A stretch of 64,000 nt of DNA from Alphaproteobacteria bacterium (GTDB lineage: Bacteria; Pseudomonadota; Alphaproteobacteria; Rhodobacterales; Rhodobacteraceae), in assembly GCA_030425925.1 (NCBI GenBank), contig JAUHZO010000007.1, positions 124,001 to 188,000 of the forward strand, read 5' to 3'. Numbering within the stretch: the stretch's first letter is position 1; the number at the start of each line of letters is the position of its first letter. The translations under genes and the position numbers were made by a program. Positions 5,556 to 33,876 of the stretch are shown here, piece after piece. The notes beneath the pieces were generated by a model. The model saw only the letters and a list, made by a program, of their open reading frames with translations. It searched no databases and was not told the origin of the DNA.

Positions 5556-7154
5556 ATGAGACTGGTATCGCAGATCCTGACCGGGAGCGACACGTTCAAG
5601 GCCAACCGCGCCGCCCATCTGGAGGCGCTGGCGCAGATCGAGGCTGCCGCCAGCGCGGCCGCCGAAGGCGGTGGCGCACGGTCGCGGGAACGGCACCTGT
5701 CGCGCGGCAAGATGCTGCCGCGCGAGCGGGTGGCCGGGCTGCTCGACCCGGGCGCGCCGTTCCTCGAGGTGGGGGCGACGGCGGCACATGGCATGTATGA
5801 CGGGGCCGCGCCCTGTGCGGGCGTGATCGCCGGGATCGGGCTGGTGGAGGGCCGGCAGGTCATGGTCGTGTGCAACGACGCCACCGTGAAGGGCGGCACC
5901 TACTACCCGATGAGCGTCAAGAAACACCTGCGTGCGCAGGAGATCGCCGAGGAAAACCGGCTGCCCTGCCTCTATCTCGTGGACAGCGGCGGCGCGAACC
6001 TGCCCAATCAGGACGAGGTCTTTCCCGACCGCGATCATTTCGGGCGCATCTTCTACAACCAGGCGCGGATGTCGGCCAAGGGGATCGCGCAGATCGCCGT
6101 GGTCATGGGATCGTGCACGGCGGGCGGGGCCTATGTGCCGGCCATGTCTGATGTGTCGATCATCGTCGCGGGCCAGGGCACGATCTTCCTCGCCGGGCCA
6201 CCCCTGGTCAAGGCCGCGACCGGCGAGGTGGTCAGCGCCGAGGACCTGGGCGGCGGTGACGTGCACACCCGGCTGTCGGGGGTGGCGGATTATCTGGCCG
6301 AGGATGACGGTCATGCGCTGGCGCTGGCGCGGCGCGCGGTGCGATCCCTGGGGGGCGGCGGGGTGAACCCCGCCCTACAAGGTCCCGCGCCGGACTACGA
6401 TCCCGAGGAGATCCTGGGCGTGGTGCCCGCGGATCTGCGCACGCCCTATGACATCCGCGAGGTGATCGCGCGGATCGTGGACGGATCGTGGTTCGACGAG
6501 TTCAAGCCGCGCTTTGGCGAGACGCTGGTCTGCGGCTTCGCGCAGGTGCAAGGGTTGGCGTGCGGGATTGTCGCCAACAATGGCGTGCTGTTCTCCGAAA
6601 GCGCCCAGAAGGGGGCGCATTTCGTGGAGCTCTGCTCGCAACGCAAGATCCCGCTGGTGTTCCTGCAGAACATCACCGGCTTCATGGTGGGCCGGAAATA
6701 CGAGAACGAGGGCATCGCGCGGCACGGGGCCAAGATGGTCACGGCGGTGGCGACAACGGCGGTGCCGAAGGTGACGCTGCTGGTGGGCGGCTCGTTCGGG
6801 GCCGGGAACTACGGCATGGCGGGCCGGGCCTATGCGCCGCGCTTCCTGTGGACCTGGCCCAACAGCCGGATCAGCGTGATGGGCGGCGCGCAGGCGGCAG
6901 GGGTGCTGGCCACCGTCAAGCGCGACGCCATCGAGCGCGCCGGGGGCACGTGGTCGGCGGAGGAAGAAGCGGACTTCAAGCGCCCCACGCTGGAGATGTT
7001 CGAGAAACAGTCCCACCCGCTTTATGCGTCGGCCCGGCTTTGGGATGACGGGGTGATCGACCCGCGCAAGTCGCGCGCCGTGCTGGCGCTGTCCTTGCGG
7101 GCCGCGCTGAACGCGCCCATCGAGGAGACGCGCTTTGGCGTGTTCCGGATGTAA
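5556..7154 (+). CDS. mccB: Methylcrotonyl-CoA carboxylase beta (carboxyltransferase) subunit
   Basis: 532 aa. It transfers carboxyl from biotin on MccA to 3-methylcrotonyl-CoA, giving 3-methylglutaconyl-CoA. The acyl-CoA carboxylase carboxyltransferase fold is complete: the N-terminal half has [37 protein letters not shown] and [15 protein letters not shown]. The C-terminal half has [15 protein letters not shown] and [14 protein letters not shown]. The motif GGANLPNQ and the adjacent ivd and mccA genes distinguish it from propionyl-CoA carboxylase. ATG 5556 ([12 protein letters not shown]) is chosen because homologous subunits begin here; the 38-bp gap after the preceding gene leaves room for a ribosome-binding site. 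Confidence 0.93.
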
Positions 7155-7284
7155 GGGGGCGCTGCCCCCTCTGCGCCTGCGGCGCATTCACCCCCGGAGG
7201 TATTTCGGGAAAGATGAAAGATGCGCGATCTGTCTTTCATCTTTCGAAAAATACTCCGGGGAGCGCGAGGGGCTGGCCCCTCGC
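7155..7284. repeat. Intergenic palindromic repeat cluster between mccB and mccA
   Basis: Right after the mccB stop is a hairpin (GGGGGC-gct-GCCCCC, 7155-7169). Then two copies of a dispersed element lie head to head. The left copy is 7191-7221 and the right copy is 7233-7261, separated by 11 nt, and both share CCCCGGAG...TATTT...GAAAGATGAAAGA. A second hairpin at 7265-7284 (GCGAGGGG-ctgg-CCCCTCGC) belongs to the right copy. A near-identical block (element plus hairpin) recurs in the opposite orientation at 36916-36967. The structure may terminate or attenuate transcription between the two carboxylase genes, or act as an mRNA-end stabiliser. Confidence 0.75.
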
Positions 7285-7328
7285 AAGCGGAACGGTTGCC
7301 ACGCGGCGACCTTTGGGGAGAGCAGGGG

Positions 7329-9263
7329 ATGTTTGACACGATCCTGATTGCCAATCGTGGCGAGATTGCCTGTCGGGTGATCCGAACGGCCCGGGACATG
7401 GGGTTGCGCACGGTGGCGGTGTTTTCGGAGGTGGATGCGGGCGCGCTGCATGTGCAGATGGCCGATACCGCCGTGTCGCTGGGCGGGCAGACGCCGGCGG
7501 AGAGCTATCTGAGGGGTAAGGCGATCATCGCGGCGGCGCAGGCCTCGGGCGCGCAGGCGATCCATCCGGGCTATGGCTTTCTGTCGGAGAACCCGGATTT
7601 CGTGGCGGCGGTGGAAGCGGCGGGGTTGACCTTTGTTGGTCCTTCCGCCGAGGCGATCCGCAAGATGGGGCTGAAGGATGCCGCCAAGCGCCTGATGACG
7701 GAGGCGGGCGTGCCGGTGGTGCCGGGCTACCTGGGCGAGGATCAGGATCCGGGCCATCTGGAGGTGGAGGCGCATCGCACCGGCTATCCGGTGCTGATCA
7801 AGGCGGTCGCGGGCGGCGGCGGCAAGGGCATGCGCCTGGTGGAGCGGGCAGAGGATTTCGTCGACGCGCTGGAACGCGCCAAGGCCGAGGCACGCACCGC
7901 GTTCGGCAATGACGCAGTGCTGATCGAGAAGTACATTCAGAAGCCCAGGCATATCGAGGTGCAGGTCTTTGGCGACGGGGCCCGGGCCGTGCATCTGTTC
8001 GAACGCGATTGCTCGCTCCAGCGCCGGCACCAGAAGGTGATCGAGGAGGCCCCGGCCCCCGGCATGACGGACGAGATGCGCGCCGCCATGGGGCAGGCGG
8101 CGGTGCGGGCGGCGGAGGCGATCGGTTACAAGGGCGCGGGCACGGTGGAGTTCATCGTGGACGGGGCAAAGGGCCTGCGCCCGGACGGGTTCTGGTTCAT
8201 GGAGATGAACACCCGCCTGCAGGTCGAACATCCGGTGACCGAGGCGATCACCGGCGTGGACCTTGTGGAATGGCAGATCCGCGTGGCCGCCGGGGAGCCC
8301 TTGCCCGCCCGGCAGGAGGATCTGGCGATAGAAGGGCATGCGTTCGAGGCGCGGCTTTATGCCGAGGACGTCCCGGCGGGCTTTCTGCCCGCCACGGGCC
8401 GGCTGACGCATCTGGCCTTTCCCGACGGCTGCCGGGCCGACACCGGGGTGCGTTCGGGCGACGTGATCTCTCCCTTCTACGATCCGATGATCGCCAAGGT
8501 CACCACGCATGGGGCCACGCGGGATATCGCCCTGCGCAAGCTGGCCCGCGCGCTGCGCGAGACCCAGGTGGCGGGCACGGTGACCAACCTGGCCTTTCTG
8601 GGCGCGCTGGCGGAGCATCCGGGCTTTGCCGCGGGGGAGGTCGATACCGGGCTGATCGCGCGCGACCTGGCCATGTTGACCGAGGCCCCGCCGGTTCAGG
8701 CGCGGCACATGGCGCAAGCGGCGCTGGCCGTGTCCCGGCTCGGGTCGGGGTGGGCGTGCGGGTTCACCCTCTGGTCGCCGCTGCGGCGGCGCATCGCGCT
8801 GCAGCGGGACGGGGAGCCTTGCGACTGCGTGCTGGAGATCGCGGGCCCCGACACGGCCCGGATCGAGACGCCGCTGGGCCTCGTGGAGGCGTTGCGGGAC
8901 GGTGCAGGCTGGCGCTTTGGCCCCGACCGGGCGGTCCCGCAGCATGTGGGGGACGGCGTGGTCACGCTCTTTGACCGCTACGGGCTGCGCTTCGAGGTGG
9001 TCGACCCGCTGGTGCAGGCGCGGGGCACCGAGGCCGGGGCGGCGCTGACGCTGGCCCCCATGCCCGGACGGGTTGTCTCGGTCCATGTGCGCGCCGGGCA
9101 GGCGGTGGCCGCGGGCGACCGGCTGGCGGTGCTGGAGGCGATGAAGATGGAACACAGCTTGACCGCCTCGCGCGACGGCGTGGTGGCCGAGGTGCTGGTG
9201 AACGAGGGTGACCAGGTGGAGGCCGGGGCCGCGCTGATCCGGCTGGAGGAGGACGAGACATGA
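7329..9263 (+). CDS. mccA: Methylcrotonyl-CoA carboxylase alpha subunit (biotin carboxylase + biotin carrier)
   Basis: 644 aa. The N-terminal 450 residues are a biotin carboxylase: IANRGEIACRVIRTARDMG at the start, the ATP-grasp Gly-rich loop AGGGGKGMR near residue 160, and EMNTRLQVEHPVTE near residue 295. A middle linker domain follows. The C-terminal about 75 residues are the biotinyl domain with the carrier lysine in VLEAMKMEHS (near residue 605). ATG 7329 gives the standard N-terminus MFDTILIANRG and has GGGGA just upstream. It partners MccB and needs the biotin ligase encoded at 36974. The alpha subunits of propionyl- and methylcrotonyl-CoA carboxylases are alike, so the name relies on gene context. 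Confidence 0.93.
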   Translation: MFDTILIANRGEIACRVIRTARDMGLRTVAVFSEVDAGALHVQMADTAVSLGGQTPAESYLRGKAIIAAAQASGAQAIHPGYGFLSENPDFVAAVEAAGLTFVGPSAEAIRKMGLKDAAKRLMTEAGVPVVPGYLGEDQDPGHLEVEAHRTGYPVLIKAVAGGGGKGMRLVERAEDFVDALERAKAEARTAFGNDAVLIEKYIQKPRHIEVQVFGDGARAVHLFERDCSLQRRHQKVIEEAPAPGMTDEMRAAMGQAAVRAAEAIGYKGAGTVEFIVDGAKGLRPDGFWFMEMNTRLQVEHPVTEAITGVDLVEWQIRVAAGEPLPARQEDLAIEGHAFEARLYAEDVPAGFLPATGRLTHLAFPDGCRADTGVRSGDVISPFYDPMIAKVTTHGATRDIALRKLARALRETQVAGTVTNLAFLGALAEHPGFAAGEVDTGLIARDLAMLTEAPPVQARHMAQAALAVSRLGSGWACGFTLWSPLRRRIALQRDGEPCDCVLEIAGPDTARIETPLGLVEALRDGAGWRFGPDRAVPQHVGDGVVTLFDRYGLRFEVVDPLVQARGTEAGAALTLAPMPGRVVSVHVRAGQAVAAGDRLAVLEAMKMEHSLTASRDGVVAEVLVNEGDQVEAGAALIRLEEDET

Positions 9264-20030: not shown

Positions 20031-20249
20031 ATGGCAGGCGGCACCGATCTCGAACGGCGCGGGCGGCGCATCGCCCTGCTGATTGCCGGGATCGGTGTGG
20101 CCTGGATCGCCGTGACGGCCCTTGGCGCGGCGCTGGACTGGAGCCAGCGCCTGCGCGCGTTTTTCGACCTCGCCGCGCTGGCCGGGTTCGGCTATGCGTT
20201 GTGGCAGATATACGGGCTCTGGCGGGATCGCCAGGAACACAAGGACTGA
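20031..20249 (+). CDS. DUF5337 small membrane protein
   Basis: 72 aa. Two transmembrane helices (residues about 12-33 and 42-61) with basic flanks, ending in a charged tail WRDRQEHKD. This size and pattern match DUF5337, a small family found next to nuoF in Rhodobacteraceae. Function unknown. Confidence 0.8.
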   Translation: MAGGTDLERRGRRIALLIAGIGVAWIAVTALGAALDWSQRLRAFFDLAALAGFGYALWQIYGLWRDRQEHKD

Positions 20250-20252
20250 GCC

Positions 20253-21551
20253 ATGCTGGATGACAAGGACCGCATCTTTACCAATCTCTACGGGATGCAC
20301 GACCGCACGCTCGACGGCGCGAAGAAGCGCGGCCACTGGGATGGCACCGCCGGCCTTATCGCCAACGGACGCGACTGGATCATCGAGCAGATGAAGGCCT
20401 CGGGCCTGCGCGGCCGGGGCGGGGCGGGGTTCCCGACCGGTCTGAAATGGTCCTTCATGCCCAAGGAAAGCGACGGCCGTCCCGCCTATCTGGTGGTCAA
20501 TGCCGACGAATCCGAGCCGGGCACCTGCAAGGACCGCGAGATCATGCGCCACGACCCGCACACGCTGATCGAAGGCTGCCTGATCGCGTCCTTCGCCATG
20601 CAGGCGCATGCCTGCTACATCTATATCCGCGGCGAATACATCCGCGAACGCGAAGCGCTGCAGATCGCCATCGACGAGGCCTATGACGCGGGCCTTCTGG
20701 GCAAGAACGCGGCGGGCAGCGGCTGGGATTTCGATCTTTACCTGCATCACGGGGCGGGTGCCTATATCTGCGGCGAGGAAACCGCGCTGCTGGAAAGCCT
20801 CGAGGGCAAGAAGGGCATGCCCCGGATGAAGCCGCCGTTCCCGGCAGGCTCGGGCCTCTATGGCTGCCCGACCACGGTGAACAACGTGGAATCCATTGCC
20901 GTGGTGCCGACGATCCTGCGCCGCGGCCCGGAATGGTTTGCGGGCTTTGGCCGGGCGAACAACGCGGGCACGAAGGTTTTCGCGATCTCTGGCCACGTGA
21001 ACAACCCGTGTGTCGTCGAAGAGGCGATGTCGATTTCCTTCGAAGAACTGATCGACAGGCATTGCGGCGGCATCCGCGGCGGCTGGGACAACCTCAAGGC
21101 GGTGATCCCCGGCGGCTCGTCCGTGCCCTGCGTGCGCGGCGAGAACATGCGCGACGCGATCATGGATTTCGACTACCTGCGGGGCGAGCTGGGCTCGGGT
21201 CTGGGCACCGCGGCAGTGATCGTGATGGACAAGCAGACCGACATCATCAAGGCGATCTGGCGGCTGTCGAAGTTCTACAAGCACGAAAGCTGCGGCCAGT
21301 GTACGCCGTGCCGCGAAGGCACCGGCTGGATGATGCGCGTGATGGACCGACTGGTGCGCGGCGAGGCGGAGGTCGACGAAATCGACATGCTCTTTGACGT
21401 CACCAAGCAGGTCGAAGGCCATACGATCTGCGCGCTTGGCGACGCGGCGGCATGGCCGATCCAGGGGCTGATCAAGAACTTCCGCGACGAGATCGAGGAC
21501 CGCATCAAGGCGCAGAAGACGGGCCGCATCAGCGCGGTGGCGGCAGAGTGA
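20253..21551 (+). CDS. nuoF: NADH-quinone oxidoreductase subunit F (NADH/FMN subunit)
   Basis: 432 aa 51-kDa homologue. NADH-binding loop [15 protein letters not shown] near residue 50-70, FMN-binding [18 protein letters not shown] near residue 80, and the N3 [4Fe-4S] ligands in [14 protein letters not shown] (about residues 348-361) with a fourth Cys in HTICALGD. Electron entry point of complex I, paired with NuoE. Preceded by the 4-bp gap after the DUF5337 gene; its stop overlaps the next gene. Confidence 0.96.
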
Positions 21552-22015
21552 GCCCTGAGGGGCACCACCTGGCCCATTTCAACTGGGCCACGCTGATCGC
21601 GGATGTGGACAGCCCCAAGGTGCGCGAGTTCGTGCATGCCGTGGACCGGGTGAACCGCCTCGCCGAGCGAAGCGACGGGTTCGTGTGGCGCAGCGGTGAC
21701 GAGGCGGCGCTGGCACAGCGCGTATGTTGGCCGCTGTTCGACAATACCCGGGTGATCGCGTCGTTTTCGCTCTGGCAGTCGCCCGAGGCGCTGGAGGCGT
21801 TTGTCTACAAGACCGTGCACGGGGCGTTCTACAAGCGCAAGGCGCTGTGGTTCGAACCGGATGGCGGGCCGAACTACGTGCTGTGGTGGGTGCCTGCGGG
21901 CATGCGCCCGACCATCACCGACGCCCGATCCCGGGTGGAGGCGATCCAGTCGCAGGGCGCAACGGCAAACGCGTTCGATTTCGGCTGGCTGACGTCGCGT
22001 GCAATAACCACTTGA
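21548..22015 (+). CDS. DUF3291 family protein (first copy)
   Basis: 155 aa from GTG 21548, overlapping the nuoF stop (GTGA). The first residues are [16 protein letters not shown], and the family core is WVAIN-like AHFNWATL...[42 protein letters not shown], and [22 protein letters not shown]. These are the conserved blocks of DUF3291, a small ferredoxin-like-fold family related to antibiotic biosynthesis monooxygenase-type domains. No function is established. A second copy is at 22830. Confidence 0.8.
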
Positions 22016-22073
22016 CCTCCCTCTGCGGGGATGGCCCTTCTCCGGCAGTGATGCCGTCAGACAGGAGACCCGG

Positions 22074-22823
22074 ATGAAACAGCCAGCCCCAAGGCCCAAG
22101 GTGCGCGACTTTCTCTTTCAGGGCACCGATGCCGCGCAGGATATCCGCGACCGCTATGGCTATGACGGCGATCTGGTGGAGATCTTCACGGGCGTGCAGG
22201 GGGCCATGGTGCACAAATGGCATCACTACCTGCCGATCTATGACCGCTATTTCGGGCCCTGGCGCGGCAAGCCGCTGAAATTCCTGGAAATCGGCGTGTC
22301 CTTTGGCGGATCGCTGCAGATGTGGCGGAACTATTTCGGGCCCGACGCGGTGATCTTTGGCATCGACATCAACCCCGACTGCGCCGCCTATGACGGCCAT
22401 CACGGCCGGGTGCGCATCGGCTCGCAGGACGATCCGGCCTTCCTGCGCGAGGTGGTGGCGGAAATGGGCGGGGTCGACGTGGTGCTGGACGATGGCAGCC
22501 ATCACATGCCGCATATCCGTGCCTCTCTCGAGGTGTTGTTCCCGCTGCTGTCCTCGCCCGGCACCTACATGATCGAGGATCTGCACACGGCCTACTGGCC
22601 GAACTTTGGCGGCGGGCTGGGCGCGCCGGGGAACTTCTTTGACGATGTGCGCCGGATGATCGACGAAATGCACTGCTGGTACCATTCCAACCCCGCCGAT
22701 ACGTCGGGCATGGGCGCGTCCATGTCGGGCATATCGGTGCACGATTCCATTGCCGTGCTGGAGAAATGGCGGGTGGAGCGCCCGGTAAATTCCCGTTTCG
22801 GGACCAATATCCGACCGGAATGA
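22074..22823 (+). CDS. Class I SAM-dependent methyltransferase (rhamnosyl O-methyltransferase/CmcI-like)
   Basis: 249 aa. The SAM-binding motif FLEIGVSFGGSLQMWRNYFG (around residues 64-82) precedes IFGIDINPDC and the motif VVLDDGSHHMPHI near residue 140. The latter is the conserved acidic/His signature of the CmcI/TylF group. This family methylates sugar hydroxyls or related substrates. The substrate is unknown. It lies between the two DUF3291 genes, 59 bp after the first and 7 bp before the second, so all three are probably co-transcribed. Confidence 0.82.
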   Translation: MKQPAPRPKVRDFLFQGTDAAQDIRDRYGYDGDLVEIFTGVQGAMVHKWHHYLPIYDRYFGPWRGKPLKFLEIGVSFGGSLQMWRNYFGPDAVIFGIDINPDCAAYDGHHGRVRIGSQDDPAFLREVVAEMGGVDVVLDDGSHHMPHIRASLEVLFPLLSSPGTYMIEDLHTAYWPNFGGGLGAPGNFFDDVRRMIDEMHCWYHSNPADTSGMGASMSGISVHDSIAVLEKWRVERPVNSRFGTNIRPE

Positions 22824-22829
22824 TCCGCA

Positions 22830-23294
22830 ATGCCGCTGGCCGAGTTCAACCGCGGCGTGCTGCGCCATGACTGGGGCGATCCCCGCATCGCCGAGTTTGC
22901 CGACAACCTCGACCGGGTGAACGCGATCGCGCAACGCTCGGACGGTTTTATCTGGCAATTGCCCGAGGCGGACATGGATGCGGCGCAGAACGATCCCGCG
23001 GGGCCGCTGGGAGGCAACCCGCGCACCGCATCGACGCTGTCGGTCTGGCGCGATCTGGCTTGTCTGGAGCGGTTCGTGTTCCACACCCTGCACAAGCGGT
23101 TCCATGATCGCCGGGCGACCTGGTTTGCGCAGGGACAGGGGCTGCGCCTGGTGCTGTGGCCGGTGCCCGAGGGGCATCTGCCCGACATCGCCGAGGCGGT
23201 GGAGCGGTTCGATCTGCTGGCGCGGGAGGGGGACAGCGACGCGGCGTTCGGCTGGGACCATGCGCGGAGGCTTGCCGCAGAAGGACGGCTGTGA
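22830..23294 (+). CDS. DUF3291 family protein (second copy)
   Basis: 154 aa. Similar block structure to the protein at 21548: LAEFNRGVLRHDW, NLDRVNAIAQRSDGFIWQLP, LSVWRDLACLERFVFHTLHKRF, WFAQGQGLRLVLWPVPEGHLP, and a C-terminal region with RFDLLAREGDSDAAFGW. The two copies are diverged paralogues rather than a recent duplication. No catalytic role is known; the fold suggests small-molecule binding or a monooxygenase relative. Confidence 0.8.
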   Translation: MPLAEFNRGVLRHDWGDPRIAEFADNLDRVNAIAQRSDGFIWQLPEADMDAAQNDPAGPLGGNPRTASTLSVWRDLACLERFVFHTLHKRFHDRRATWFAQGQGLRLVLWPVPEGHLPDIAEAVERFDLLAREGDSDAAFGWDHARRLAAEGRL

Positions 23295-23375
23295 CGGCCA
23301 CGCTCGCGCCTTTGGGCCTTGCCGTGCTAGGCTGGGATCAACTTGCGCCTGCATCATTGCCGAAAGGAATTTGCC

Positions 23376-23816
23376 ATGAGCCGTACCGCCGTCCTGCGCC
23401 TTGCCTGCGCGTGTCTGGCCGTGTTGTCGGTGGCGGGCTGCGACATGCTGCGACCCGCTGCCAAGGAACGCGCGGTGCCGTTTGACGCCCAGGGCGTGGT
23501 GGCGCTTGACGGGGTGCGCTATGCCTATGCCTTCGATCCCGCGGCGGCACCCATGGCCCCGGTGATGATGGAAGGCACGACCTCTGGCACGCTGGAAGAA
23601 CGGCTGATGCCCGATGGCGACGGGGCCCCGCAGCCGGTGCTGCGCATCGGCTTTGCCGACGGGCAGGCCATGACGCAGGCGCATCGCGGTGGCAGCCGCC
23701 GGGTGGCGGCGTTCCTGTGCGCCGAGCGCGCCGACTGGCCCCGCGCTGCCGGGGCCGCCTCACCCGACTGGCTGGCCGAGGGAGCCTGGCACATCGTCGC
23801 CCCCTGCAGCGCTTGA
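23376..23816 (+). CDS. Predicted lipoprotein
   Basis: 146 aa. A lipobox (LSVAG|C) lies at about residue 22 after a hydrophobic stretch. The mature part is about 120 residues with several Asp/Glu and a Cys near the end (FLCAERAD; HIVAPCSA). No family is recognised. AAAGGA lies 8 nt before ATG 23376. It begins a run of four consecutive small exported proteins before nuoG. Confidence 0.65.
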   Translation: MSRTAVLRLACACLAVLSVAGCDMLRPAAKERAVPFDAQGVVALDGVRYAYAFDPAAAPMAPVMMEGTTSGTLEERLMPDGDGAPQPVLRIGFADGQAMTQAHRGGSRRVAAFLCAERADWPRAAGAASPDWLAEGAWHIVAPCSA

Positions 23817-23841
23817 CCTCTCCCGCCGCAAGGGGGATTGT
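23813..23841 (+). promoter_or_regulatory. Predicted promoter before the gene at 23869
   Basis: TTGACC (23813-23818), a 17-bp spacer and GATTGT (23836-23841). The -35 overlaps the stop codon of the preceding gene. The stretch cTTGACCTCT...GCCGCAAGGGGG recurs in front of the DUF2235 gene at 58799, which strengthens the prediction that both are functional promoters of the same type. Confidence 0.45.
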
Positions 23842-23868
23842 GTCGGCGCAACGAGGCAGGGGGACGTC

Positions 23869-24183
23869 ATGAAACGAATGGCAGTGGCAGCGCTTCTGGC
23901 GGTGGCCGGGTCTGCGGCGGCGGCCGAAGTGGTGAAATCCGCCACCTTCGCGGGCGAGATCAGCCGCCGCGCGGCCAAGCCGCTGGAGGATGGCACCCGC
24001 ATGTTCCAGGTCTATGTCAGCGTCACCACCACCGCCGGCGCGGTGCCGGGTCAGGGCCAGATTGCCGCCGCCGGGCGCTTTGCCGTGGCGGCGGGCTGCC
24101 GCAACGGCACCGCGATGTCGGCGATCTATGCCGGCAGCACGGCCGAGGCGGCGGAATTCGAAGTGCTGTGCGGGGTGCGCTGA
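23869..24183 (+). CDS. Small secreted protein
   Basis: 104 aa with a signal peptide (MKRMAVAALLAVAGSAAAAE). The mature chain of about 84 residues is beta-rich with a Gly/Thr pattern and two Cys (AAGCRNGTAMS and FEVLCGVR) that could pair. Family not recognised. Its ATG 23869 has GGGGGACG upstream, and its stop overlaps the start of the next gene. Confidence 0.65.
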   Translation: MKRMAVAALLAVAGSAAAAEVVKSATFAGEISRRAAKPLEDGTRMFQVYVSVTTTAGAVPGQGQIAAAGRFAVAAGCRNGTAMSAIYAGSTAEAAEFEVLCGVR

Positions 24184-24524
24184 TGCTGCGTGTGATGCTT
24201 GCCGGGATCGTCTGCCTGGGGCTTGCCGGCTGCGACAAGCTGGGCTTTGGCCGCGACGCGCCCACCTTTGACGGGCAGTATTTCCGCGGCTCGGCCAAGG
24301 TCACCGACCGCAAGGACCGCCAGCAGTTCACGGCCACCGTGCGGCAGGTCTCGAAATCGCTCGACGGGGCGGTGGCGGCCGCCGAACATGAAGGCGTGAA
24401 GCATTGCATCCGCTATTTCGGCACCTCCGAGATCGACTGGGAGGTCGGCCCCGACACCCCGCGCGAGGCGCTGCCGGTGTCGAACGACACGCTGACCTTC
24501 CGCGGGCGCTGCATCGACAAATAA
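24183..24524 (+). CDS. Predicted lipoprotein
   Basis: 113 aa. MLRVMLAGIVCLGLAGCDK has a lipobox (LAG|C). The mature chain is about 97 residues, starting near DKLGFGRD, with two further Cys (HCIRYFGTSEIDW and GRCIDK). The start overlaps the previous stop (TGATG). A hairpin with 9-bp stem immediately follows the stop (24537-24565). Family not recognised. Confidence 0.65.
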   Translation: MLRVMLAGIVCLGLAGCDKLGFGRDAPTFDGQYFRGSAKVTDRKDRQQFTATVRQVSKSLDGAVAAAEHEGVKHCIRYFGTSEIDWEVGPDTPREALPVSNDTLTFRGRCIDK

Positions 24525-24570
24525 CCGTGCCATGACGGGAAACCGCCGGTTTTGCCCGGTTTTCCACGGT
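24524..24570. terminator. Two-tiered hairpin after the lipoprotein gene
   Basis: An inner stem of about 9 bp (24537-24545 with 24557-24565, one G.T pair) and an outer stem ACCGTG/CACGGT (24524-24529, 24565-24570). The 3' arm holds four consecutive T. It could act as a weak terminator or mRNA stabiliser before the next gene at 24638. Confidence 0.4.
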
Positions 24571-24637
24571 GTTATTGCATATCAGGGCGGGATCGGCCCA
24601 TTTCCTCCCGGTGTTGAACGTGATGCAGGAGGCCGCG

Positions 24638-25030
24638 ATGCGCCTGATTCCCCTTTGTCTTGTCCTTGCGCTGATCGCCGGGACCGCCACGGCGAAACCG
24701 CCGCTGCGCGAGGTGCCCGAGATCGATGACGGGCTGATGGCGGTAGCCATTGCCGACCAGATTCGCAAAAGCTGCGACGGCATCAGCGCCCGGATGCTGC
24801 ACGCCATGGGGGTGATCAACGGGCTCAAGGCGCGGGCCAAGTCGCTTGGCTATTCCGAGGCCGAGATCGACGCCTATGTCTCGTCCAGCGCGGAAAAGGC
24901 GCGCATGCGCGCCAAGGCCACCGCCTATCTGGCCGCGCGCGGGGTCAGCGCCGGCAATCGCGACCAGCTTTGCGGGTTTGGCCGGTCCGAGATCGCGGCG
25001 CGCAGCGCCATCGGCACCCTGCTGCGCTGA
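24638..25030 (+). CDS. DUF5333 family secreted protein
   Basis: 130 aa. A signal peptide (MRLIPLCLVLALIAGTATAKPP) is followed by a helical domain: MAVAIADQIRKSCDGISARML, GVINGLKARAKSLGYSEAEIDAYV and a final GNRDQLCGFGRSEIA. Two conserved Cys are present. The pattern matches DUF5333, found beside nuoG in Rhodobacteraceae. GGAGG lies 5 nt before ATG 24638. Role unknown; probably periplasmic. Confidence 0.78.
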   Translation: MRLIPLCLVLALIAGTATAKPPLREVPEIDDGLMAVAIADQIRKSCDGISARMLHAMGVINGLKARAKSLGYSEAEIDAYVSSSAEKARMRAKATAYLAARGVSAGNRDQLCGFGRSEIAARSAIGTLLR

Positions 25031-25057
25031 GACCGGATGCGCCGAGACCGGATGCGC
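25029..25057. repeat. Tandem 15-bp duplication
   Basis: GAGACCGGATGCGC occurs twice in a row with a period of 15 bp, starting in the stop codon of the DUF5333 gene. It lies in the 253-bp gap upstream of nuoG and has no evident regulatory match. Replication slippage is the simplest origin. Confidence 0.6.
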
Positions 25058-25283
25058 AAGGTGCCCAGGGTCGGGGCATCGAGGCCCGGCCTGCCCGGTT
25101 TGTGGTCACACATTCCGGGCGCGGCATGTAACCACCGCTGCCCGCGTCGATTTTTCCCGCTGACCGGCCCGGTATGATCTGGCGTCTTTGCTGCAGGCGC
25201 GATAGAACGCGCCCGACCGCAGCCGAATTGCCCGCGGGGCGAAATGCGGCGCGGCCGGCCATGGAAAGCATAAGGGCTCGGGC

Positions 25284-27302
25284 ATGTCGGATTTGCGCAA
25301 GATCATCATCGACGGACAGGAAGTGGAAGTGGAGGGCGCGCTGACGCTGATCCAGGCCTGCGAACAGGCCGGGATCGAGGTGCCGCGCTTCTGCTATCAC
25401 GAACGTCTGTCGATCGCGGGCAACTGCCGGATGTGTCTTGTCGAGGTTGTCGGCGGCCCGCCGAAGCCCGCGGCCTCCTGCGCGATGCAGGTGCGCGACG
25501 TGCGCGGCGGCCGCAATGGCGAACTGCCCGAGATCAAGACCAACTCGCCCATGGTCAAGAAGGCCCGCGAGGGCGTGATGGAATTCCTTCTGATCAACCA
25601 TCCGCTGGACTGCCCGATCTGCGACCAGGGCGGCGAATGCGACCTGCAGGACCAGGCGATGGCCTATGGCGTGGATTTCTCGCGCTTCCGCGAGCCCAAG
25701 CGCGCGGTGACCGATCTGGACCTGGGCCCGCTGGTGGAAACCCACATGACGCGCTGCATCTCGTGCACGCGCTGCGTGCGCTTCACCACCGAAGTGGCGG
25801 GCATCACCCAGATGGGCCAGACCGGGCGCGGCGAGGATGCCGAGATCACCTCGTACCTGAACCAGACGCTCGATTCGAACCTGCAGGGCAACATCATCGA
25901 CCTGTGCCCGGTGGGCGCGCTGGTGTCGAAGCCCTATGCCTTTACCGCCCGCCCGTGGGAGTTGACCAAGACCGAAACCATCGACGTGATGGATGCGCTT
26001 GGCTCCAACATCCGGGTCGACACCAAGGGGCGCGAAGTGATGCGCATCCTGCCGCGCAACAATGACGGCGTGAACGAGGAATGGATTTCCGACAAGACGC
26101 GCTTTGTCTGGGACGGGCTGCGCCGCCAGCGGCTGGACAAGCCCTATGTGCGCGAGAACGGCAAGCTGCGGCCCGCGACCTGGGGCGAGGCGCTCACGAA
26201 GGCCGCGGCAGCGGTCGAGAGAGCGACGAGCCTTGCGGGGATCGTGGGCGATCTCGCCCCGGCAGAAGCGGCCTACAGCCTCAAGACCCTGATCGAGGGG
26301 CAGGGCGGCGTTGTGGAATGCCGCACCGACGGGGCAAAGCTGCCGGCGGGCAACCGCTCGGGCTATGTCGGCACGGCGGCGATCGAGGATATCGACGGCG
26401 CTGAGATGATCCTGCTGATCGGCACCAACCCGCGCGACGAGGCGCCGGTGCTGAACGCCCGCATCCGCAAGGCCTGGGCCGCGGGGGCCAAGGTGGCCCG
26501 TATCGGCATACCGGTGGATCTGACCTATGACGTGATCGAACTGGGCACCGGGCGCGAGGCTGTGCGCAAGATGGCCGGGATGGACCACAGCGACAAGCAG
26601 GGCATCCCCGGCGTGATGATCGTCGGCCAGGGCGCGCTGCAGGAGGCCGATGGCGCGGCGCTGCTGGGCACCTGCATGGCCATGGCCGAAGCTGCCGGAT
26701 CCAAGCTGATGATCCTGCACACTGCGGCCTCCCGCGTCGGCGCGATGGATGTCGGAGCCGTGAACGACCGCGGCATGGACGCGGTCTCTGAGGCGGACGT
26801 GATCTACAATCTCGGCGCGGACGAGGTGGAGATCGGCGAAGGGGCCTTTGTCATCTACCAGGGCAGCCATGGCGACCGCGGCGCACACCGTGCCGACATT
26901 ATCCTGCCGGGTGCCGCCTATACCGAGGAACAGGGCCTCTTTGTGAACACCGAAGGCCGCCCGCAACTGGCGTTGCGCGCAGGCTTTGCTCCGGGTGAGG
27001 CCAAGGAGAACTGGGCCATCCTGCGTGCGCTCTCGGCCGAGATCGGCGCAACCCTGCCCTGGGACAGCCTGGCGCAGTTGCGCCAGAACCTGGTGGCCGA
27101 CGTGCCGCATCTGGCGCAGATCGACACGGTGCCGGAAAACGCCTGGCAGCCGGTGGACGCGGGGCCGATGGGCGATGCCGATTTCCGCTATGCCATCGCC
27201 GATTTCTACCTCACCAACCCGATCGCCCGCGCCTCGGCCCTGATGGCCGAACTGTCGCGCAACGCCAAGGCGCGCGCCGCCGCGCCGCTGGCGGCCGAAT
27301 AA
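25284..27302 (+). CDS. nuoG: NADH-quinone oxidoreductase subunit G
   Basis: 672 aa 75-kDa homologue. The N-terminal ferredoxin-like domain binds N1b with Cys in [20 protein letters not shown]. An H-cluster-type region binds N5 ([18 protein letters not shown]). N4 ligands are in [15 protein letters not shown] and [13 protein letters not shown]. The remainder is the molybdopterin-oxidoreductase-like domain with no active-site residues. The length is typical for alphaproteobacteria. A 253-bp gap separates it from the small secreted-protein genes; the start [17 protein letters not shown] is typical. Confidence 0.95.
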
Positions 27303-27305
27303 CGC

Positions 27306-27701
27306 GTGCGGGGCATGGCGCTCATATCCGCGCTGGCACTGGCCAGCGGCCTGTCGGCCTGCACCGATGACGAGGGCCCGGCGGCGCCGTTTGCGCCGGT
27401 CTACGGGGGAATCGAGACCCGGCTTCTGGATGGCGACCTTGTGCAGTTCGACGTGGCCATGCGCGGTGCGCGCGGGCCCGGCGATGTCGAGGATTACGCA
27501 CAATGTGCCGCGGCGCAGTATGCGCTGATCCGCGGCTACGGTTTTGCGCGGCATTTGCGCACGAATGTATACGAAGAGGGTGGCCTCTGGCGCGGAGATG
27601 CGGTTTACACCATCTCGGCGGCGCTGCCCCGCGGGCTCAGGACGATCGACGCCGAGGTTGTCGCCGCCGCCTGCGCCGAAAACGGAATACCGATGGTGTG
27701 A
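27306..27701 (+). CDS. Predicted lipoprotein between nuoG and nuoH
   Basis: 131 aa from GTG 27306 (ATG 27315 is possible and gives [12 protein letters not shown]). A lipobox (GLSA|C) at about residue 19 indicates lipid anchoring. The rest is acidic: [40 protein letters not shown] with two Cys near the middle and the C-terminus. I do not recognise a family, though similar short lipoproteins sit at this place in other Rhodobacteraceae nuo operons. Confidence 0.65.
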
Positions 27702-31734: not shown

Positions 31735-33876
31735 ATGGAGAGCATCATCCTTTTCGCGCCGCTTTTCGGCGCGCTCATCGCGGGGTTCGGCTGGCGGTTC
31801 ACCGGCATCCGGGGCGCGCAGTGGATTTCCACCGGGCTGCTTTTTGTCGCCTGCGCGTTCAGCTGGATCGTGTTCTTCCAGCACGGGCCCGAGACGGAAT
31901 ACGTCCAGGTGGCCCGCTGGATCGAAAGCGGCACGCTCAGCACCGACTGGTCGATCCGGCTGGACCGGCTGACCTCGATCATGCTGATCGTGGTCACCAC
32001 CGTGTCGGCGCTCGTGCACCTCTACAGCTTTGGCTACATGGCGCATGACGACAATTTCCGCGAGGGCGAGGAAAGCTATCGCCCGCGCTTTTTCGCCTAT
32101 CTGTCCTTCTTCACCTTCGCGATGCTGATGCTGGTGACCTCGGACAACCTGGTGCAGATGTTCTTTGGCTGGGAGGGGGTGGGCGTCGCGTCCTACCTGC
32201 TGATCGGTTTCTACTACCGCAAGCCAAGCGCCAACGCTGCGGCGATCAAGGCGTTCGTGGTCAACCGCGTGGGGGATTTCGGCTTTGCGCTGGGGATCTT
32301 CGCGCTTTACTTCCTCGTGGACAGCGTACGGTTCGACGACATCTTTGCCGCGGCACCCACGCTGGCCGAAACGCAGCTGACCTTTCTCTGGACAAGCTGG
32401 AACGCGGCGGAACTGGTGGCCTTCCTGCTGTTTGTCGGCGCGATGGGCAAGTCGGCGCAGTTGATCCTGCACACCTGGCTGCCGGACGCGATGGAAGGCC
32501 CGACGCCGGTGTCGGCCCTGATCCACGCCGCCACCATGGTGACGGCGGGCGTGTTCCTTGTCTGCCGCATGTCGCCGGTGATGGAGTTCGCGCCAAACGC
32601 CACCGCCTTCATCACCTTCCTGGGCGCATCGACGGCGTTCTTTGCCGCCACGGTGGGTCTTGTGCAGACCGACATCAAGCGGGTGATCGCCTATTCGACC
32701 TGTTCGCAGCTGGGCTACATGTTCGTCGCCGCAGGGGTCGGGGCCTATGGCGTGGCGATGTTCCACCTGTTTACCCACGCGTTCTTCAAGGCGATGCTCT
32801 TCCTTGGGGCCGGGTCGGTCATCCACGGGATGCACCACGAACAGGACATGATGAACTATGGCGGGCTGCGCAAGAAACTGCCTTACACCTTCCTTGCCAT
32901 GCTGGTGGGCACGCTGGCGATCACCGGGGTGGGCATCCCGTTGACCGGCTGGTTCGGCTTTGCCGGCTTTGCCTCCAAGGACGCGGTGATCGAAAGCGCC
33001 TATGCGGCCGAACCCGGAGGCTTTGCCTTCTGGGCGCTGGTGATCGCGGCGCTGTTCACCAGTTTCTACAGCTGGCGGCTGATGTTCCTGACCTTCTTCG
33101 GCAAGCCGCGCGGCGACAAGCACACGCATGAACACGCGCATGAAAGCCCGATGGTGATGCTGGTGCCGCTGGGCGTGCTGGGTCTGGGTGCGGTGTTTGC
33201 CGGGATGATCTGGTATGGCAGCTTCTTCGGCCATGTGGACAAGGTGGCCAAGTTCTTTGGCCATCCCTATGGCGAAGAACAGGCGGATGGCGAGATTGCG
33301 GTGGTCTGGCCCGCGGGTGTGGCGCATGGCGCAGAACACGGCGGCGACCACACGGACGATCACGGCGAGGCCAAGGACGGCGAGGGCCATGACGACCATC
33401 ACTATGTCTTTGCCGGTCAGCCGGGCGAAGGGGCCATCTATATCGCACCCGACAACACCATCCTTGACGACGCCCACAAGGTGCCGACCTGGGTCAAGCT
33501 GAGCCCGTTTGTCGCCATGCTGATCGGTCTGGGCATCGCGATCTGGTTCTACCTCGTGAACCCGGCATTGCCCGCCAAGCTGGCCGAGAACCAGCGCCCG
33601 CTATACCTGTTCCTCAAGAACAAGTGGTATTTCGACGAGATCTACGACTTCCTCTTTATCCAGCCCGCCAAGGCGCTTGGCCGGATCTTGTGGAAAGGCG
33701 GCGATGAGGCGGTGATCAAGGGCGGCATCAACGGGCTTGCCATGGGCATCGTGCCGTTCTTCACCCGGCTCGCGGGGCGCGCGCAGTCCGGTTACATCTT
33801 CACCTATGCCTTTGCCATGGTGATCGGGATCGCGATCTTCATCACCTGGATGACCATCGCCGGAGGGGCGAACTAA
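31735..33876 (+). CDS. nuoL: NADH-quinone oxidoreductase subunit L, with histidine-rich insertion
   Basis: 713 aa, longer than the about 610-aa E. coli subunit. The family core is intact, with the conserved [44 protein letters not shown] and [20 protein letters not shown]-like motifs (Lys and His positions of the proton channel), and a C-terminal lateral helix. Between about residues 455 and 570 it carries two His-rich tracts: [10 protein letters not shown] (about 463-472) and [14 protein letters not shown]...GHDDHHYVF (about 531-560). Extra residues lie mainly there. Confidence 0.95.

Follow-up and report, generated by a model that had tools for sequence, protein, structure and literature searches.

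In the Rhodobacteraceae, the complex I gene nuoG is usually bracketed by genes for two small, predicted exported proteins, a DUF5333 protein (D) upstream and a predicted lipoprotein (E) downstream. The window analysed here, a continuous stretch of 64,000 nucleotides, contains a complex I operon from this family. The initial annotation had grouped the four genes directly before nuoG, here designated A to D, as a single periplasmic module, and had overlooked a fifth gene for a predicted exported protein, E, located 3′ of nuoG. The four-gene module does not hold, as A was not seen outside its own genome in the sets searched and B is rare, whereas C was detected in 109 of 248 and D in 218 of 295 genera. 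It is to be replaced by a conserved D/E pair flanking nuoG, often joined by C, and A and B are local extras. The linkage of DUF5333 to nuoG, its invariant pair of cysteines and the existence of its partner E are new here.

Gene content around nuoG in the window

All genes from nuoF to E are transcribed in the forward direction. The slot between nuoF and nuoG is delimited on its left side by nuoF (positions 20253-21551), a homologue of which was found in 93 of the 107 loci examined. Directly 5′ of nuoF is a gene for a small, apparently membrane-bound DUF5337 protein (20031-20249), which is present in 62 of the 107 loci, many of which stop short of that position. Within the slot, the order is a DUF3291-like gene, a methyltransferase-like gene, a DUF3291 gene, A, B, C and D, followed by nuoG. 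The first of these (21548-22015) has a GTG start that overlaps the nuoF stop codon, and the third (22830-23294; PF11695, 124.2 bits) was found in 23 of the 107 loci, including two copies from the genome of the window itself; no export signal was seen in either product, and both products match the same places in other loci in tblastn searches. The two DUF3291-like genes flank the methyltransferase-like gene (22074-22823), which scores 27.5 bits against PF13578 (cut-off 26.3) and occurs in 6 of the 107 loci. This trio is confined to part of the Rhodobacteraceae and is variable cargo of the slot.

A (23376-23816, 146 aa) and C (24183-24524, 113 aa) are predicted to encode lipoproteins, B (23869-24183, 104 aa) a secreted protein and D (24638-25030, 130 aa) a periplasmic protein. 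The B and C genes share a single base (TGATG), and 253 bases separate D from nuoG (25284-27302), which encodes the core complex I subunit NDUFS1/Nqo3 (1178 bits to 8qby_G) and sits between D and E. The E gene (27306-27701) starts 3 bases after nuoG, lies between nuoG and nuoH, and predicts a lipoprotein of 131 aa from the GTG at 27306 or 128 aa from the ATG at 27315. A weak scan of the region 21400-25500, in which shuffles gave 0.4 and 2.2, found no sigma70-type promoter or terminator-like site.

Export was assigned using simple rules (a hydrophobic stretch, a lipobox, an AxA motif), and these crude rules flag 14 of the 54 open reading frames in the window, some of which were judged to be false, for example an internal start in nuoF. 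The rule-based check agrees with the earlier assignment of two lipoprotein-type signals (A and C) and two cleavable-type signals (B and D) directly before nuoG, and all four predicted proteins have two cysteines after the signal, as had been described. A run of three or four export-flagged reading frames is unusual and, taken alone, is suggestive rather than decisive. C, D and E are taken to be genuine, predicted exported proteins on the basis of the cysteines conserved across their relatives. The lipobox rule is matched by A, C and E, for which lipidation is predicted. In E. coli, an Asp following the lipobox Cys retains a lipoprotein in the inner membrane. This residue is found in A and C of the window, but in only 10 of 92 C sequences and 5 of 60 E sequences, and the combination of Asp and lipobox is therefore no argument for inner-membrane retention across the families.

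The lipobox of A reads ...SVAGC22 and further cysteines are at positions 115 and 144, while the lipobox of C reads ...GLAGC17 and is followed by Cys75 and Cys110, with an additional Cys11 inside the signal. The predicted signals of B and D end in ...AAAA/E and ATA/K, respectively (the slash marks the end of the signal); B has Cys77 and Cys101, and D has Cys46 and Cys112 as well as an additional Cys7 inside the signal. E, in the 128-aa numbering, has a lipobox Cys16 followed by Cys64 and Cys120. The identification of the last of the four upstream products as a DUF5333 protein is borne out, with D scoring 138.6 bits against PF17267 (gathering cut-off 27, E-value 1.2e-40). Residues 21-130 of D align to positions 1-110 of the 110 in the profile, indicating a complete member of what Pfam describes only as a 'family of unknown function'. 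A, B and C gave no Pfam or NCBIfam match above threshold. DUF5333, DUF5337, PF17267 and PF17272 are not mentioned in any of the 5.39 million open-access papers searched, and a literature search for nuo-operon reading frames, lipoproteins and periplasmic factors of complex I, judged by title and start of abstract, found no description of these genes.

Conservation, linkage and loss

Occurrence in the family was counted in one genome per genus, where diverged copies may escape detection; on this basis nuoG was found in 286 and E in 215 of 295 Rhodobacteraceae genomes, and 217 of the 218 genomes with D have a match over the Pfam cut-off. When the count is limited to genomes with a completeness of 90% or more and a contamination of 5% or less, nuoG is present in 260 of 260, D in 202 of 260, E in 195 of 260 and C in 95 of 215. 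Across the class, D was found in 5 of 385 genomes, the window's own included, and all 5 are Rhodobacteraceae. E was found in 4 of 240, three of which are Rhodobacteraceae, and the fourth match (G011) was weak (E-value 0.009 over 46 residues) and was dropped. Outside the Rhodobacteraceae, these samples contain neither D nor E.

The module had been said to stand or fall with conservation outside a few strains, and this is seen for C and D but not for the other two. A search of 60 other genomes found no relative of A, a weak match in G413 (E-value 0.0017, 51 residues) having been dropped, and the 107 loci contain only the two copies from its own genome. In the loci examined, four relatives of B come from other genomes (L071, L087, L103 and L105), and both cysteines are retained in all 5 sequences, including that of the window.

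Linkage was assessed using the best-scoring matches listed that could be paired, and most extra DUF5333 copies fall outside these counts. Among those matches, D immediately precedes nuoG, in the same orientation, in 87 of 87 genomes; E immediately follows nuoG in 95 of 95 (63 and 32), and the interval between D and E is approximately 2.1 kb, the size of nuoG, in 100 of 100 (99 and the window's own genome). A scan with D alone yielded 73 named loci, and nuoG adjoins D in 72 of them. C is present in 68 of the 73 and B in one, while a strong E match was found in 61, or in 61 of 71 when L007 and L073, which end at a contig edge before E, are set aside. As would be expected of genes for periplasmic assembly factors, D and E travel with complex I genes. 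DUF5333 is matched two or three times in some genomes; in L017, L055, L062 and L074, the second match is in the same locus. One contig labelled Nocardioides marinus DP1N28-1 (L044) carries a Rhodobacteraceae-type nuo operon, and is likely to come from a mislabelled or contaminated assembly.

The Cys pairs of C, D and E are invariant in the alignments that were obtained after removal of duplicates and off-length copies. The D pair is kept in 100 of 100 distinct relatives, own copy included (108 copies before filtering). Both the lipobox Cys17 and the later pair of C are kept in 92 of 92, again including the own copy (101 before filtering). In E, Cys64 and Cys120 are present in 60 of 60 and Cys16 in 58 of 60 distinct sequences, with degraded E copies among the off-length ones excluded. 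Median identity across the named loci is 64% for E (61 loci), 51% for D and 39% for C, compared with 77% for NuoG (70 loci). E is therefore more conserved than D or C, both of which evolve fast.

No D was found in 77 of the 295 family genomes, and no E in 80. In the set filtered for completeness and contamination (260 genomes, all with nuoG), 58 genomes lack D and 65 lack E. Loss has occurred repeatedly. A decayed or weak E is located between nuoG and nuoH in eight loci (L011, L015, L018, L019, L023, L028, L029 and L041), which are mostly labelled Ruegeria, Silicibacter or Sedimentitalea, and E is absent from two Yoonia loci (L070 and L072).

Slot contents were read in 19 of the 77 D-negative genomes; 18 of these keep E and six have C. 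Eleven (L115-L122, L128, L129 and L132) carry X, a family of predicted lipoproteins that have a Cys pair, end in ...W.F...C and occupy the nuoF-nuoG slot of DUF5333-negative genomes, and two of the eleven also carry Y. Either X or C, both Cys-pair proteins, is found in the slot of 17 of the 19, the exceptions being L126 and L127. In L120 (X) and L125 (C) the protein was recognised by HMM and not by the export test, which moreover picked up a frame internal to nuoF in many D-negative loci. Assignment of A to the X or Y family was rejected, as neither HMM lists A up to an E-value of 10 and hhalign gave 0.3% or less.

Homology between C and E was likewise rejected, the hhalign probability falling from 92% with the signal to 0.8% without signal and lipobox, with 4 of 60 column shuffles as good. 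The two share only a predicted order of strand-strand-helix-strand-strand, and in each the predicted helix contains one of the paired cysteines. Comparison of the A-B, A-C, A-E, B-C and B-E profiles without signal and lipobox gave 1.3% or less in every case, although A-B and A-C score a little higher than most shuffles, which equal them in 1 and 2 of 60 cases, respectively. As no significant profile similarity among A, B, C and E remains after signal removal, the slot is one location for several predicted exported proteins that are unrelated or have diverged beyond recognition.

AlphaFold2 models predict a β-β-α-β-β arrangement for C (mean pLDDT 90) and β-β-α-β-β-α for E (mean pLDDT 91). Comparison of C and E with solved structures using Foldseek and VIA-align 2 gave nothing above Z 6.6 or below an E-value of 0.017. 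The nearest folds for E are weak matches to ribosomal chains, some named S24e (best Z 6.6, 2.5 Å, 77 residues aligned). The best match for C is the FvfA lipoprotein fold (5evf; Z 6.0, rmsd 2.8 Å, 73 residues aligned, 12% identity), and the next match other than FvfA has a Z of 4.4. With a Z under 8 and a Foldseek E-value of 1.1, the match to FvfA is weak and may reflect merely a common arrangement. RcsF, DUF4156 and HdeA, considered as possible resemblances, are not named among the matches listed, although a resemblance may still exist. Going by these models, solved folds give no functional clue for C or E.

D and E in relation to Paracoccus denitrificans complex I

One genome examined (G766, locus L134) encodes a NuoG that is 100% identical to chain G of 8QBY, the nanodisc structure of P. 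denitrificans complex I according to the available text of the structure paper (PMC11522691). In this locus, D is between nuoF and nuoG and E is between nuoG and nuoH, and there is no C. The E protein is 255 aa long (6984-7748, reverse strand), approximately twice the length of E in the window, and has an extra N-terminal part. All nine loci of the genus Paracoccus that were examined have D and E.

The PDB contains 8QBY and four further entries with the same NuoG. Searches of the PDB with the D, E and C profiles found no chain with an E-value below 0.005, and the matches listed are to unrelated proteins, CTCF and others; those of the E profile to CTCF were weak (best E-value 0.0052) and were dropped. 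As the genome that matches 8QBY encodes both D and E, yet no PDB chain matches them, D and E are not stable subunits of the purified P. denitrificans complex I. A structural (supernumerary) subunit would appear as a chain in the solved enzyme, and D, E and C do not. The available sections of the paper on the 2.3 Å structure list 14 core subunits together with NDUFS4, NDUFS6, NDUFA12 and PIMT, and name no accessory protein on the periplasmic side, where mammalian NDUFA8 and NDUFS5 are absent and hairpin loops provide stabilisation (PMC11522691). NDUFS4, NDUFS6, NDUFA12 and CI-PIMT are likewise extra proteins beyond the 14 core subunits of alphaproteobacterial complex I. However, according to the same sections, these proteins are bound in the solved enzyme, PIMT at the hydrophilic domain (PMC11522691). 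D and E are predicted to be periplasmic and are absent from it.

No sequence match was found in the PDB between D and chains of the NDUFA8, NDUFS5 or NDUFB7 type. These three are small, disulfide-rich subunits of the mitochondrial intermembrane space, located on the equivalent face of complex I. The twin CX9C arrangement of the NDUFA8 type is not seen in D, C or E, in which the two cysteines of the mature protein are 66, 35 and 56 residues apart, respectively. Papers from the 1990s reportedly listed unidentified reading frames (URFs) in the nuo/nqo operons of P. denitrificans and Rhodobacter capsulatus as unknown. We take these very probably to be D and E, given the corresponding gaps in the genome with a NuoG identical to that of 8QBY, and we know of no description of their export, disulfides or linkage across the family.

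Possible roles of C, D and E

Operon linkage suggests, tentatively, that C, D and E are dispensable periplasmic helper factors of complex I, with a role in its assembly or stability, and this reading is favoured over those of transcript passengers and weakly bound subunits. Further points in its favour are the invariant cysteines, the restriction of D and E to a family in which nearly all genomes have this nuoG, the relatively high conservation of E, the E and Cys-pair proteins retained in D-negative genomes, and the arrangement at L074. Points against it are the decay or loss of E in several lineages, the fast evolution of C and D, a NuoL insert that does not differ between D-positive and D-negative genomes, and solved folds that offer no hint of function. 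By the sequence rules, all three would be exported, C and E anchored by lipid and D as a soluble periplasmic protein, and the invariant Cys pairs suggest that each would be closed by one intramolecular disulfide. Contact with complex I is proposed from the gene linkage, in that C, D and E may associate briefly with the periplasmic side of the NuoH/J/K/L/M/N arm during assembly or stress. D and E would then leave or be washed off before purification, consistent with their absence from the solved P. denitrificans enzyme. They would be helpful rather than essential, because lineages lose D or E and keep nuoG. In the available text of a Tn-seq study of R. sphaeroides on LB, all 14 nuo subunits are reported to be essential (PMC5513736). 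A, B and the X and Y proteins would be fast-changing extra occupants of the nuoF-nuoG slot. The earlier suggestion of a periplasmic module associated with complex I may still hold, but D and E match no PDB chain, and one or the other is missing from many genomes that keep nuoG.

It is also quite conceivable, if somewhat less probable, that C, D and E are envelope proteins with another task that ride on a strongly and steadily expressed nuo transcript. The unrelated cargo without export signals (DUF3291, methyltransferase) that the slot holds in some genomes is consistent with such passengers, as are the turnover of slot occupants between lineages (A, B, C, X and Y), the lack of D and E in the solved complex and the many genomes that retain nuoG without D or E. 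However, passengers would be expected to occur as scattered copies, yet D and E adjoin nuoG in all comparable pairs among the matches listed, and the greater conservation of E relative to D and C also argues against this explanation.

Alternatively, D and E could be periplasmic subunits that the mature complex binds only weakly and that detergent removes; the same linkage is in keeping with this, but we consider it unlikely. The absence from P. denitrificans of the disulfide-rich mammalian NDUFA8 and NDUFS5 is in keeping with subunits of this kind, and the extraction of the P. denitrificans enzyme is described as using detergent in the available text of the report (PMC8115037). Against this, the P. 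denitrificans model comprises the core and additional subunits listed above, and the D, E and C profiles match no PDB chain. Chance open reading frames in high-GC DNA are a very improbable explanation for the exported proteins, already refuted for C, D and E by invariant cysteines and many relatives and opposed for B by four relatives with both cysteines, though A, which has no relatives in the sets searched, has codon-position composition as its sole support for coding.

A more speculative and, at present, doubtful reading is that a periplasmic set of proteins for quality control or assembly is dedicated to complex I in the Rhodobacteraceae. D and E would form the core of this set, joined by C in a sizeable subset of genomes and by fast-evolving disulfide lipoproteins in the slot. 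Its site of action would be the outside of the proton-pumping arm, and it would be partly separable from the NADH-oxidising arm. Partial separability is suggested by locus L074, where D, a D-like copy and E occur with NuoL- and NuoM-like reading frames. We know of no bacterial counterpart of such a set for complex I. P. denitrificans serves as a bacterial model system for the mitochondrial enzyme, and if D and E help to build or protect the proton-pumping arm from outside, this would be an overlooked periplasmic step in the biogenesis of bacterial complex I. If they are not helpers, the very tight linkage of D and E to nuoG over many genera needs another explanation.

NuoL of the window (31735-33876) has a His/Asp/Glu-rich insert in the loop before VPTWVKL. 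In 87 sequences, including that of the window, the insert ranges from 26 to 108 aa, with group medians of 79-87.5 aa and 8-11.5 His; the median in the two sequences from the genus Paracoccus is 87.5 aa. It may correspond to the flexible periplasmic ND5 TMH14-15 insertion of the P. denitrificans structure, and metal binding is possible. Docking on this insert was considered but found no support, the median length being 79 aa in both D-positive (66 sequences, window included) and D-negative (19 sequences) genomes.

L074 (7229-12364) is a locus from a Rhodobacteraceae MAG, isolate ALOHA_ZT_56. It contains DUF5337, a D-like copy (E-value 1.7e-4), D and E directly before reading frames identified by eye as NuoL- and NuoM-like, followed by a birA-like reading frame. 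Neither nuoF nor nuoG was found in the locus, there is no reading frame of nuoH size between E and the NuoL-like frame, and the highest-scoring NuoG match genome-wide has 32% identity. The NuoL-like protein shares 24-31% identity with places in other genomes, and by eye the TM7 Lys motif is absent. The MAG may be incomplete, or D and E may have outlived the redox arm, leaving a possible relict or repurposed membrane arm. If the arrangement is real, it ties D and E to antiporter-like subunits.
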